Shown in pieces: positions 16,755 through 45,445 of a stretch of 47,522 nt of DNA (position 1 is its first letter; every line of letters begins with the position of its first letter). The DNA lies in contig JAEMTE010000007.1 in NCBI GenBank assembly GCA_016462445.1, positions 1-47,522 of the forward strand, written 5' to 3'. The notes below the pieces were generated by a model that saw only the letters and a program-made list of their open reading frames with translations, did not search any database and was not told the origin of the DNA. Made by a program: the position numbers and the translations under genes. Source of the DNA: Candidatus Nanopelagicus sp. Its GTDB lineage: Bacteria; Actinomycetota; Actinomycetes; Nanopelagicales; Nanopelagicaceae.

Positions 16755-18923
16755 ATGACAACCTTAGAATTGTTAAAGCCGTTAGTTGCTGGCCTTTCAC
16801 TATCTCACCCAGGATTTTCAAATAAGGATTTAGAGCGAGCATTTATTGCTGCTGAAAAAGCCCATGCCGGACAACTTCGTAAATCTGGGGATGCGTATAT
16901 AACACATCCAGTAGCGGTGGCTCAGATATTAATTGATCTAGGAATGGATTTGCCAACAGTTATGGCCGCCTTATTACATGACACAGTTGAGGACACCACC
17001 TACTCAATAGATCAAATAAAAAGTGAGTTTGGTGATGAGGTGACATCTTTAGTTGATGGGGTTACCAAGTTAGATAAATTAACCTACGGACCGACTGCTG
17101 AGGCAGAGACTTTGCGCAAGATGGTTGTTGCGATGTCTAGAGATATTAGAGTGCTAGTTATTAAGTTGGCAGATCGGCTGCATAATGCCCGCACTTGGGA
17201 GTTTATTGAGGCAGAGACTGCTAGTCGTAAGGCTAAAGAAACAATTGATATCTATGCTCCACTTGCCCACCGACTAGGAATGAATGCAATTAAGTGGGAG
17301 CTTGAGGATCTCTCATTTAAATTCCTAGAGCCAAAGAAATTTGAAGAGATTGAACGGTTAGTAAGTGAGAGATCACCGGCTCGAGATCAATTAACACAAG
17401 AGGTAATTTCTGCAATTGATCAGGATTTAAAACAAGAGAAGATACAAGCGCAGGTCATTGGCAGACAAAAGCATTTCTATAGCGTCTATCAAAAGATGGT
17501 GGTCAGAGGCCGTGAGTTCAATGATATTTATGATTTAGTAGGAGTGCGGATATTGGTTGATTCAGTTCGTGATTGTTATGGAGTACTTGGCGCAATACAT
17601 GCTAGGTGGAGTCCAGTACCAGGTAGATTTAAAGATTACATTGCAATGCCAAAATTTAATCTCTACCAATCTCTACACACCACAGTGATTGGGCCAAATG
17701 GCAAAGCGGTAGAGATTCAAATCCGCACCTTTGATATGCATGCTCGGGCGGAGTATGGAATTGCTGCGCACTGGAAATATAAATCTAAAAACACTGAAGC
17801 TGGAAAGAGTCCAGAGGAAATTTGGCTTCGCCAGCTGCATGAGTGGCAGCAAGAGAGTGAAGATGTTGGTGATTTCTTAGAGACCTTAAGGTATGACCTT
17901 CGCACACCGGAGGTCTTTGTCTTTACTCCCAAGGGAAGTGTGATCGCACTGCCATCAGGATCTACCCCAGTTGATTTTGCCTATGCAGTTCATACCGAGG
18001 TTGGTAATAAGTGTGTTGGGGCTAAGGTAAATGGAAAATTAGTGCCACTTGAATCTCATTTAGTAAATGGTGATGTTATAGACATTGTTACAAATAAAGG
18101 AATTACTGCAGCACCAAGTCATGATTGGCTTAACTTTGTAACATCATCTAGAGCCAGATCAAAGATAAAGGCTTGGTTTTCTAAGGAGCGTAAGGAGGAG
18201 GCAATTGAGGCTGGGCAAGAGTCAATTGCTCGCCAAATGCGAAAGGCAGGTCTGCCACTACAAAAGATATTAGGTGGACACGCATTGCTTGAGTTAGCAC
18301 ATGATCTTCGATATGAAGATATTGAGAGTTTGTATGAAGCAGTTGGAAATGGTTATGTCTCAGCCCACTCAGTAATTGAAAAACTAATGGTGTTACTTGG
18401 AACATCAGATGCTCATCCAGAGAATGATCTAACTCCGCTGATTAATCCAGTCAAGCGTGAGCGAAAAAGTGTTACAGGTATTGATGTTGAGGGAGCGGCA
18501 GATGTTTTGGTAAAGCTTGCTAGGTGTTGCGCACCTGTTCCAGGGGATAAAATTACTGGTTTTATTACCCGTGGCAGTGGCGTCTCAGTGCATCGCGCAG
18601 ATTGTATAAATATTACCGATCTTAAAATTCATCAAGGCGATCGAATGGTCGCAGTCAAATGGAACCTGTCCGCTAAGAGCACTTTCCTAGTAAATATTCA
18701 GGTAGAGGCGCTTGATCGGGCCCGACTGTTATCTGATGTAACAAAGGCATTATCTGATCAGCAGGTAAATATATTAAGTGCCTCAGTTGTTACTAATAAA
18801 GATCAGACAGCGATTTGTAAATTCTCTTTTGAGATGGCAGATGCCTCCCACTTAGATGCAGTATTAGCGGCGGTTAGAGTGATTGAGGGTGTTTATGATG
18901 TGGATCGAATCTTTAATAATTAG
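16755..18923 (+). CDS. rel: Bifunctional (p)ppGpp synthetase/hydrolase (RSH, Rel)
   Basis: It makes and degrades the alarmone (p)ppGpp in the stringent response. In 722 residues it has an HD hydrolase domain with the intact HDTVED motif (75-80), a synthetase domain carrying RFKD (291-294), the RXKD variant typical of bifunctional long RSH enzymes, a TGS domain (from VFVFTPKGSVIALPSGSTP), a zinc-finger/helical region with RCCAPVPGDKITGF and a C-terminal ACT domain (VNIQVEALDRARLLSDV). Only a weak -10-like AAGCCT is seen seven bases upstream. The stop overlaps the convergent DUF349 gene by four bases. Confidence 0.97.
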   Translation: MTTLELLKPLVAGLSLSHPGFSNKDLERAFIAAEKAHAGQLRKSGDAYITHPVAVAQILIDLGMDLPTVMAALLHDTVEDTTYSIDQIKSEFGDEVTSLVDGVTKLDKLTYGPTAEAETLRKMVVAMSRDIRVLVIKLADRLHNARTWEFIEAETASRKAKETIDIYAPLAHRLGMNAIKWELEDLSFKFLEPKKFEEIERLVSERSPARDQLTQEVISAIDQDLKQEKIQAQVIGRQKHFYSVYQKMVVRGREFNDIYDLVGVRILVDSVRDCYGVLGAIHARWSPVPGRFKDYIAMPKFNLYQSLHTTVIGPNGKAVEIQIRTFDMHARAEYGIAAHWKYKSKNTEAGKSPEEIWLRQLHEWQQESEDVGDFLETLRYDLRTPEVFVFTPKGSVIALPSGSTPVDFAYAVHTEVGNKCVGAKVNGKLVPLESHLVNGDVIDIVTNKGITAAPSHDWLNFVTSSRARSKIKAWFSKERKEEAIEAGQESIARQMRKAGLPLQKILGGHALLELAHDLRYEDIESLYEAVGNGYVSAHSVIEKLMVLLGTSDAHPENDLTPLINPVKRERKSVTGIDVEGAADVLVKLARCCAPVPGDKITGFITRGSGVSVHRADCINITDLKIHQGDRMVAVKWNLSAKSTFLVNIQVEALDRARLLSDVTKALSDQQVNILSASVVTNKDQTAICKFSFEMADASHLDAVLAAVRVIEGVYDVDRIFNN

Positions 18924-42643: not shown

Positions 42644-43576
42644 ATGAGCGCCCTAGATTTCTCAACCAAAATCGGTAGTAAAAGATTTTCTAATCCAATA
42701 TTTACCGCTAGTGGCTGTGCTAGTTCCGGGCAGGAGCTTGCTCAGTTCTTCCCATTAACTGAGATTGGCGCAGTTGTCACTAAATCAATAATGGTTAAGG
42801 CTAGAACTGGTAGAGCAACTCCTAGAATGGCAGAGACTCCAAGTGGAATGCTTAATTCAATTGGTCTGCAGGGACCTGGAATTGATACATTTTTAGAAAG
42901 AGATATTCCATGGCTAGTTGAGCAACAGGTTAAGGTAATTGTCTCAATTGCAGGTGAGAGTGTTGATGAGTATGGTGTTTTAGCGCGTAGATTAAGAGCG
43001 GTCTCTGGAATTAGTGCAGTTGAGGTAAATATCTCCTGTCCAAATGTAGAAAACCGTGGCCAAGTATTTGCCTGTCATCCCGATACTTCAATTGCAGTAA
43101 TTGAGGCGGTACGTCGAAATATAGGTGGTGAGCTACCAATAATTGCTAAGTTATCACCTGATGTAACAGATATTGTGGAGATAGCAAGAGCTGTTATTAA
43201 TGCAGGTGTTGATGGACTGGCTCTAATTAATACACTTCTAGGTATGGTAATTGATACAAATACTATGAAACCAAAGCTTGCTGGTAAGACTGGTGGATTA
43301 TCTGGTCCAGCAATTAGGCCAGTTGCAGTTCGAGCAATTTATCAAGTACACCAAGCCTTTCCAGATACGCCAATTGTTGGCATGGGTGGGGTTGCAAGTG
43401 GGCGAGATGCACTGGAATTAATTCTCGCAGGTGCTAGTGCGGTATCGGTTGGTACTGCCAGCTTTGGTAACCCAAAAGCTGCCTTTGATATTAAAAATCA
43501 ATTGGCAGAGTTATTAACTGAAAAAGGGTTTAACGACCTTCGTGATGCAATTGGCTTTGCCCATCGAGGTATTTAA
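42644..43576 (+). CDS. pyrD: Dihydroorotate dehydrogenase, class 1B catalytic subunit
   Basis: This FMN enzyme oxidises dihydroorotate to orotate in the cytosol. The 310-residue protein has ASGCASSG near the start, SIMVKARTGR, the active-site Cys in VNISCPNVENRG, GLALINTLLGM and VGMGGVASGRDALELILAGA. The size and the neighbouring pyrK fit the class 1B heterotetramer that uses NAD+. The start ATG at 42644 (MSALDFSTKIGS) is four bases after the pyrK stop. Confidence 0.94.
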   Translation: MSALDFSTKIGSKRFSNPIFTASGCASSGQELAQFFPLTEIGAVVTKSIMVKARTGRATPRMAETPSGMLNSIGLQGPGIDTFLERDIPWLVEQQVKVIVSIAGESVDEYGVLARRLRAVSGISAVEVNISCPNVENRGQVFACHPDTSIAVIEAVRRNIGGELPIIAKLSPDVTDIVEIARAVINAGVDGLALINTLLGMVIDTNTMKPKLAGKTGGLSGPAIRPVAVRAIYQVHQAFPDTPIVGMGGVASGRDALELILAGASAVSVGTASFGNPKAAFDIKNQLAELLTEKGFNDLRDAIGFAHRGI

Positions 43577-44268
43577 TGACATTACCAATAATTCTCGCAT
43601 TAGATACTAAGGAGATTAAGCAAGCTCTTGCCTGGATTAAGACATCAGGTGATTTAATTGATCACTTTAAGGTTGGACTTGAATTTTATCTTCGGCATGG
43701 CAGCGCTGGTATCGAACAACTGCGCAAGGAGAGTGAGTTTGAATTATTTTTAGATCTAAAACTTTATGATATCCCCAACACAGTTAAGGGCGCAGTTGAA
43801 TCAGTTGCCCAACTATCACCTAAGTTTCTCACCGTTCATGCCAGTGGTGGTAGCAAAATGATTAGAGCAGCTGCTGATTGCCTACCTAATGGCTCAATAA
43901 CTGCAGTTACAGTATTGACCTCTTTTTCCGAATCAGAGTTTGCAGCATTAGGAGCTAAACAAAGTATTGAAGAGACAAGTAAATCTTGGGCAGTTAGCGC
44001 ACTAGCAGCTGGTGCCACCTCACTTGTTTGTTCACCATTTGAGGTAGCAGCTCTTCGTAAATTATCTGCCACAGCAACCTTAATAACACCTGGAGTTCGC
44101 GTGGCAGGAGATGATGCTGGTGATCAGGTAAGGGTTATGACCCCAAAGGATGCTATCGATCAAGGTGCTAATTTTGTAGTGATCGGTCGATCAATAACTC
44201 AGATGTGGGATGGCTCTGGTGTAAAAATGCGTAATAAGATTGAGCAAATAGCTAACTCATTGAGGTAA
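43576..44268 (+). CDS. pyrF: Orotidine 5'-phosphate decarboxylase (short form)
   Basis: It decarboxylates OMP to UMP. The 230-residue protein is the short form, with the catalytic Asp-Lys-Asp network in FLDLKLYDIPNTV, TVHASGG, and VIGRSIT in the phosphate-binding loop. Streptomyces and Mycobacterium, as I recall, carry the longer form of about 275 residues, so the short form is a small departure. It overlaps pyrD by one base and lies two bases before the mIHF-Gmk gene. Confidence 0.95.
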   Translation: MTLPIILALDTKEIKQALAWIKTSGDLIDHFKVGLEFYLRHGSAGIEQLRKESEFELFLDLKLYDIPNTVKGAVESVAQLSPKFLTVHASGGSKMIRAAADCLPNGSITAVTVLTSFSESEFAALGAKQSIEETSKSWAVSALAAGATSLVCSPFEVAALRKLSATATLITPGVRVAGDDAGDQVRVMTPKDAIDQGANFVVIGRSITQMWDGSGVKMRNKIEQIANSLR

Positions 44269-44270
44269 AT

Positions 44271-45137
44271 ATGTTGCCACCAAGATTAAGTAGACGAGAT
44301 CGCAGAAAAGCTGGTGAGAAGGCGGTTGCCGCTAGACAGGAGCGGGCTAAGGTCAAAGAGCAGGTGGCTAATGGGCAATTATTTTTCTTTGACCTATTCA
44401 AAGATGAGCGTAAATCTATTTCTAGAATGAAATTGAGCGATCTACTGCAGGCGGTTCCAGGAGTTGGACAGATCAGGGCCGATATTATTTTTGATAAAAC
44501 TGGCATCTCACCCTCGCGTAGAATTGGTGGTGTCGGCAAGCGACAACTTGAGCTATTGAGGCAGGAATTTCTATTGATTAAGAACTCTCGTAGAAGTGGC
44601 AAACTCCTGGTGGTCTCTGGTCCTAGCGGTGTTGGTAAAAGCACAATCACTAACAGATTGCGCGCCGATAATAGATTTTGGATCTCAGTCTCGGCAACTA
44701 CTAGGCAGATTCGTACAAATGAAGTAGGTGGTGTTGATTACCACTTTGTTTCTGATGAGAGATTTAATGAAATGATTGAAAGCAAAGAGTTTTTAGAGTG
44801 GGCAGATTTTGCTGGGGCAAAGTATGGAACACCAAAGCAGCCAGTTGATGAAGCGTTGGCCGATGGAAAGAATGTGATTTTAGAGATTGAATTAAATGGC
44901 GCCAGGCAGGTAAGGAAGAATTCAAAAGATGCAATTTTGATTTTTATCGAACCACCATCCTGGCAGGAGTTAGAGACTCGTTTAATAAATCGTGGAACTG
45001 AATCTAAACAATCAACTCAGGCTCGGCTAGATAGGGCAAAGGAGGAGCTTTCAGCAGCCTCAGAGTTTGACCATATCGTCATAAATCATCAGGTAGAGGA
45101 GTCGGTTGCCGAACTGGTATCTTTAGCCCTTGCCTAA
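44271..45137 (+). CDS. Fused mycobacterial-type integration host factor and guanylate kinase
   Basis: The single 288-residue frame joins two normally separate genes. Residues 1-100 match actinobacterial mIHF/sIHF, a nucleoid-associated DNA-binding protein: a basic helical N-terminus ([19 protein letters not shown]) and the helix-two-turn-helix block [16 protein letters not shown] with [14 protein letters not shown]. Residues 108-288 are a complete guanylate kinase (GMP to GDP): P-loop [10 protein letters not shown] (116-125), [20 protein letters not shown] and [16 protein letters not shown] at 44574 (residue 102) with AGGCAGGA seven bases upstream could start a separate 187-residue kinase. 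In relatives mihF and gmk are neighbours in the same order. No frameshift is visible. Confidence 0.85.
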
Positions 45138-45166: not shown

Positions 45167-45445
45167 ATGAGCAATCAAGCCTTAGATGGAATTACTAATC
45201 CGCCAATCGATGCCTTGTTAGATAAGGCAGGCTCTAAATACAGCCTTGTTCTTTATGCAGCAAAGCGTGCTCGTCAAATTAATGCTTACTACTCACAATT
45301 GGGTGAAGGTTTACTTGAGTATGTTGGCCCACTTGTTGAGACATATGTTCATGAGAAGCCACTATCTATTGCATTGCGTGAAATTAATGATGGCTTGTTA
45401 TCTATTGAAAATTTAGAACCAAAGCCAGCGGACTCAGCTAGCTAA
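45167..45445 (+). CDS. rpoZ: RNA polymerase omega subunit
   Basis: Omega assists assembly and stability of RNA polymerase by clamping the beta' subunit. The 92-residue protein has the signature [20 protein letters not shown] near residue 23 and [16 protein letters not shown] near residue 61. AAAGG lies nine bases upstream of the ATG. The position after gmk is standard, and coaBC follows after 10 bp. Confidence 0.95.

Follow-up and report, generated by a model that had tools for sequence, protein, structure and literature searches.

Fusion of mihF and gmk in Nanopelagicaceae: one conserved reading frame with a probable nested guanylate kinase start

The sole mihF and the sole gmk of a Candidatus Nanopelagicus genome share a single reading frame right behind pyrF. 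This is a genuine, conserved fusion gene that likely gives two products, full-length mIHF–Gmk and a nested Gmk of 187 residues. Among the nucleoid proteins of Actinobacteria mIHF is a major one, and it is essential in mycobacteria; guanylate kinase (Gmk) is likewise an essential enzyme. The fused frame occupies positions 44271–45137 (+) of the window, the whole stretch of 47,522 nucleotides analysed here, and its translation gives 288 codons without an internal stop.

The N-terminal half matches the mIHF (actinobacterial IHF) profile NF041260 over residues 4–100 (44280–44570, +; 87 bits vs. a cut-off of 60, E = 9.6e-25), with the alignment covering model positions 3–101 of 102 and the domain running up to the natural C terminus of mIHF (EF). 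Pfam H2TH_5 is likewise above its cut-off in this half, and the nearest solved structures are SCO1480/sIHF (4itq, 7.7e-18) and mIHF (6tob). A linker of residues 101–109 (44571–44597, +), equal in length in nearly all members of the genus, leads to the guanylate kinase domain at residues 110–286 (44598–45128, +), which matches TIGR03263 (230 bits vs. a cut-off of 160, E = 1e-68); its nearest solved relative is M. tuberculosis Gmk (1znw/1s4q, 48% identity). The P-loop GPSGVGKST is intact at residues 117–125 (44619–44645, +), and the invariant columns of an alignment of 64 sequences are present. Both domain assignments of the first-pass annotation, mIHF in residues 1–100 and a complete guanylate kinase with an intact P-loop behind it, are thereby borne out. 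An AlphaFold model shows two confident domains (pLDDT 89.5) of uncertain mutual orientation (pTM 0.63), the last mIHF helix (residues 90–104) extending into the linker. The full-length protein is read as an intact mIHF DNA-binding domain, a short linker, and an intact guanylate kinase, and would be expected to bind DNA and phosphorylate GMP.

The genome of the window has one match for mIHF and one for gmk, both being the fused gene; a second, standalone mIHF or gmk was looked for in this genome and not found. The standalone small-protein state of mIHF/sIHF is absent here, as the frame is fused and there is no second copy; this state is typical rather than defining, because NCBI models mIHF as an equivalog_domain. 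All 13 residues that are invariant among 35 standalone mIHFs are retained in the fused mIHF half, and certain near-invariant ones, e.g., K33 and V55, are altered relative to the same 35 sequences. The dN/dS ratios for seven species pairs (0.00–0.15 for the mIHF half and 0.03–0.09 for the Gmk half) show strong purifying selection on both halves. In most comparisons between species of the genus, synonymous sites are close to saturated or past it, dS exceeding 1 in four of the seven pairs tested.

Below, g1 denotes the genus and f1 the family (Nanopelagicaceae) of the window, the other g and f labels standing for sampled genera and families. The frame is fused in all 21 g1 genomes with a match, a degree of conservation that excludes chance. 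One of these genomes (G020) is cut off where its contig stops, and three consist of a single contig and are 99–100% complete; the four g1 genomes without a match are 62–71% complete. Conservation of the fused frame among relatives, proposed as a check by the first-pass annotation, is what we observe, and in the g1 relatives examined the frame runs through residues 98–110 with no stop and no frameshift. Within Nanopelagicaceae, 11 of the 17 sampled genera are fused (g1, g2, g3, g4, g6, g7, g8, g11, g13, g37, and g38), and g5, g9, g10, g12, g39, and g146 are split. Outside it, family f36 (perhaps Microbacteriaceae), with genome sizes of 2.8–4.3 Mb, has the fusion in all but one of the 20 genomes sampled (19 of 20), and it is seen in two genomes of a single genus, g102, of family f34. 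In most other sampled families of the class mihF and gmk are adjacent yet split, with spacing in split relatives that ranges from overlap to about 130 nt. This agrees with the earlier statement that the two are normally separate neighbours; the order in M. tuberculosis is mihF-gmk-rpoZ, and polar effects involving the neighbouring genes are described for Mycobacterium (PMC6155035).

The fusion arose about three times at the class level (f1, f36, and f34-g102). A carB tree favours three changes within Nanopelagicaceae; since the AU test leaves room for one fused clade there (p-AU 0.18), three separate fusions inside the family are not claimed, and the count is kept to the class-level events. 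In some genomes of f34, f5, and f39 and in a Rhodoluna, gmk comes directly after pyrF and no mIHF match was found there. L095, L096, L097, L117, and L046 (Rhodoluna) have this arrangement, and mIHF may have been lost in these lineages. In the Gmk tree, named Rhodoluna do not group with f36. L039 (CAMCVO010000002.1), titled Bifidobacterium breve and probably a mislabelled metagenome bin, has a fused gene of the Nanopelagicaceae type as well, with 79% identity to that of the window.

The evidence for the second product comes from the linker region. Here, a Shine-Dalgarno-like element, AGGCAGGA (44559–44566, +; duplex energy −7.7 kcal/mol; g1 consensus (A/G)AGGAG), is followed by TTG at position 44574, codon 102, from which a nested Gmk frame of 187 residues would run (44574–45137, +); the pairing is at least as strong as that of annotated starts nearby. 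When the linker is read codon by codon, codon 103 is ATG in eleven g1 species; the ten g1 species that lack this ATG all have TTG at codon 102, while TTG102 is found in just one species with ATG103. Codons 98–100 read AGGAGTTT in g1 and are nearly free of synonymous change. An unsupervised search along the frame places the peaks of synonymous conservation at codons 281–287, 83–85, and 98–100; with column shuffling within amino-acid classes, the 3′ end being left out, the block at codons 98–100 is significant locally (p = 0.0002) and does not reach significance gene-wide (p = 0.17). No comparable peak was found in pyrF, used as the control gene. The switch between ATG and TTG in g1 gives a sign test of 3 to 0 (p = 0.25), the number of independent events being too small. 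Further species of g7, g38, and g37 were therefore added.

In a whole-frame scan, each codon was checked for ATG, GTG, or TTG with anti-Shine-Dalgarno pairing. The linker ranks first in g1 (21 of 21 species, the next best separate site reaching 33%), in g7 (81%, the next 30%), and in g38 (73% with a Shine-Dalgarno element, and 15 of 15 for the start codon alone); 5 of the 27 g7 species have no start codon at the scored site. In g37 and g3, two Planktophila-like genera, and in f36 the linker site is not among the best in the same scan; in f36 the first rank goes to the probable real start of the fused frame. Since the linker start codon is absent in g37 and g3, it is not demanded by the protein itself. 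Taken at the level of sequence, these patterns show nucleotide-level constraint at an internal start, i.e., a conserved ribosome-binding site with ATG, GTG, or TTG, in the linker of g1, g7, and g38. Because this start, which the first-pass annotation had not noted, is conserved, at least part of the Gmk of g1 is probably not tethered.

We propose that in the Nanopelagicaceae branch to which g1 belongs, the ribosome-binding site and start codon of the ancestral gmk were retained within the fused frame. The joined gene would then be read in two ways, giving a full-length product with the mIHF DNA-binding domain linked to guanylate kinase and, by internal initiation, free Gmk (187 residues in the window), the latter possibly also from an internal promoter. 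The fusion alone would peg Gmk to the level of mIHF; the internal start would uncouple the two supplies, letting Gmk exceed mIHF and supplying untethered enzyme. We infer that both products, mIHF–Gmk and free Gmk, exist; as one gene would give the two, all mIHF would be tied to a kinase and free Gmk would be made separately.

The possible internal gmk promoter is marked by TAGAAT, a −10-like hexamer within mIHF codons 83–85 (44519–44524, +). Synonymous conservation of these codons is extreme (gene-wide p = 0.0004, column shuffle); TAGAAT is kept in 19 of 21 g1 members and the looser TANNNT in all 21, and at the same site all 15 g38 species carry the codons CGT-AGA. A consensus scan found no −35 element for TAGAAT, and in g7 the element at codons 83–85 is not kept consistently; for these two reasons the internal promoter stays a suggestion, and TAGAAT may be its −10 box or some other nucleotide-level element. 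A promoter for mIHF inside pyrF was also considered, and was rejected as there is no synonymous-site peak. At the 3′ end, AACTGGTATCTTTAGCCCTT (45112–45131, +), which lies in the last gmk codons, is near-invariant in g1 at synonymous sites. Its TGnTANNNT form is kept across Nanopelagicaceae, split genomes included; we read this element as probably the rpoZ promoter (extended −10).

The gene order in the window is pyrF (43576–44268, +; named from sequence and operon context), the fused gene, rpoZ for the omega subunit (45167–45445, +; named from sequence and gene order), and coaBC. The gap between pyrF and the fused gene is 2 nt, the mIHF start lying immediately past the pyrF stop (44268–44271); spacing and Shine-Dalgarno element differ among species. 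Translation of this nucleoid protein probably trails that of a pyrimidine operon. At 17460–17792 the window also encodes a RelA/SpoT homologue.

Other explanations bear either on the frame itself or on its products. An assembly or sequencing artefact, i.e., a missed stop or indel, could be suspected, since the window comes from a 60-contig draft of 86% completeness, but the same frame is present in more than 100 other genomes, among them single-contig ones that are 99–100% complete; with three such genomes in g1 itself, we reject this explanation as having a negligible chance. It is also conceivable that the gene makes a single bifunctional mIHF–Gmk only, the start-like codons inside it being a relic of the gmk start or due to chance. 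The frame is indeed continuous everywhere, and g37, g3, and f36 carry the fusion without a conserved internal start; however, g1, g7, and g38 keep a start codon and a Shine-Dalgarno element at synonymous or variable positions despite near-saturated synonymous sites, and no second site in the frame behaves like the linker start, so that we consider an obligate fusion unlikely.

Why the genes fused is a separate question, and here a neutral origin is a serious rival, independent of the finding of a nested start. A single stop would have been lost between near-touching mihF and gmk, and the resulting fusion would be functionless and merely tolerated; in split relatives the two genes overlap or lie up to about 130 nt apart, and fluorescent proteins placed C-terminally on mIHF are functional in M. 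smegmatis, where such fusions replace the essential protein, so that a C-terminal partner is tolerated and an extension at this end appears harmless (PMC10028186). Against this, a single change would turn many linker codons into a stop, yet none was regained in the 21 g1 members or in those other fused genera whose codons were read one by one, and the origins in f1, f36, and f34-g102 are separate. We regard neutral read-through as quite possible, if somewhat short of an even chance. The first-pass annotation had also raised, as a possibility, simple loss of a stop codon in a streamlined genome; streamlining alone does not explain a fusion that is also found in the 2.8–4.3 Mb genomes of f36, and plain stop loss is too weak an account, because the frame is kept across whole genera and arose more than once. 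At the other extreme, tethering might itself be functional, with GMP phosphorylated on the nucleoid, or with binding of guanine nucleotides or (p)ppGpp by Gmk modulating the binding of mIHF to DNA. The first-pass annotation had proposed tethering of the kinase to DNA or guanine-nucleotide control of DNA binding, and the present results speak neither for nor against these two ideas. In favour are the recurrence and retention of the fusion with both halves intact, the presence of the RelA/SpoT homologue in the window, and the rank of mIHF among the most abundant M. tuberculosis proteins (PMC6155035), owing to which a large amount of Gmk would be carried to DNA by a fusion. The conserved internal start, however, argues for a need of untethered Gmk in g1, and the relative domain orientation, at the pTM given above, is not confidently predicted; we consider functional tethering quite improbable. 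The same low expectation applies to its extension into a selected device, in which DNA-bound mIHF–Gmk would respond to guanine nucleotides or (p)ppGpp and the nested start would tune how much of the kinase is tethered and how much is free; we mention it as a doubtful idea.

Compared with mIHF of Mycobacterium and sIHF (SCO1480) of Streptomyces, the fused protein shares the full-length match to NF041260, the conserved Arg/Gly/Gln core, and the gene neighbourhood of pyrF, gmk, and rpoZ; however, the studied members stand alone, with a length of about 105 residues, and here the domain forms the N-terminal part of a 288-residue protein. Similarly, the complete domain and the intact P-loop are shared with bacterial Gmk (TIGR03263; M. 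tuberculosis Rv1389), while the predicted N-terminal DNA-binding domain is an addition, and the start codon is apparently nested in the fused frame. Genes nested in frame within longer ones, and translated from an internal start, are a general phenomenon in bacteria. The present case resembles them in having an internal Shine-Dalgarno element and start codon from which a C-terminal product of the longer frame is expected, as judged from the DNA; it differs in that the nesting results from gene fusion and, if the predicted products are made, would let a metabolic enzyme be made apart from the nucleoid protein to which it is fused. A literature search, with subscription papers mostly outside its reach, found no paper linking mihF with guanylate kinase, and the single paper found that mentions mIHF with gmk treats both as separate genes; this is weak evidence of absence. 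Both domains belong to known families, and mIHF is already modelled as a domain by NCBI; what appears to be new is that the two are fused and that a nested start is conserved in the fused frame.

In the very abundant freshwater Nanopelagicaceae with this gene, mIHF would be encoded solely in linkage with a kinase, which bears on how DNA packing tolerates or exploits the fusion. With its conserved internal start, the gene would be a clear example of a fusion in which one partner can still be supplied independently.
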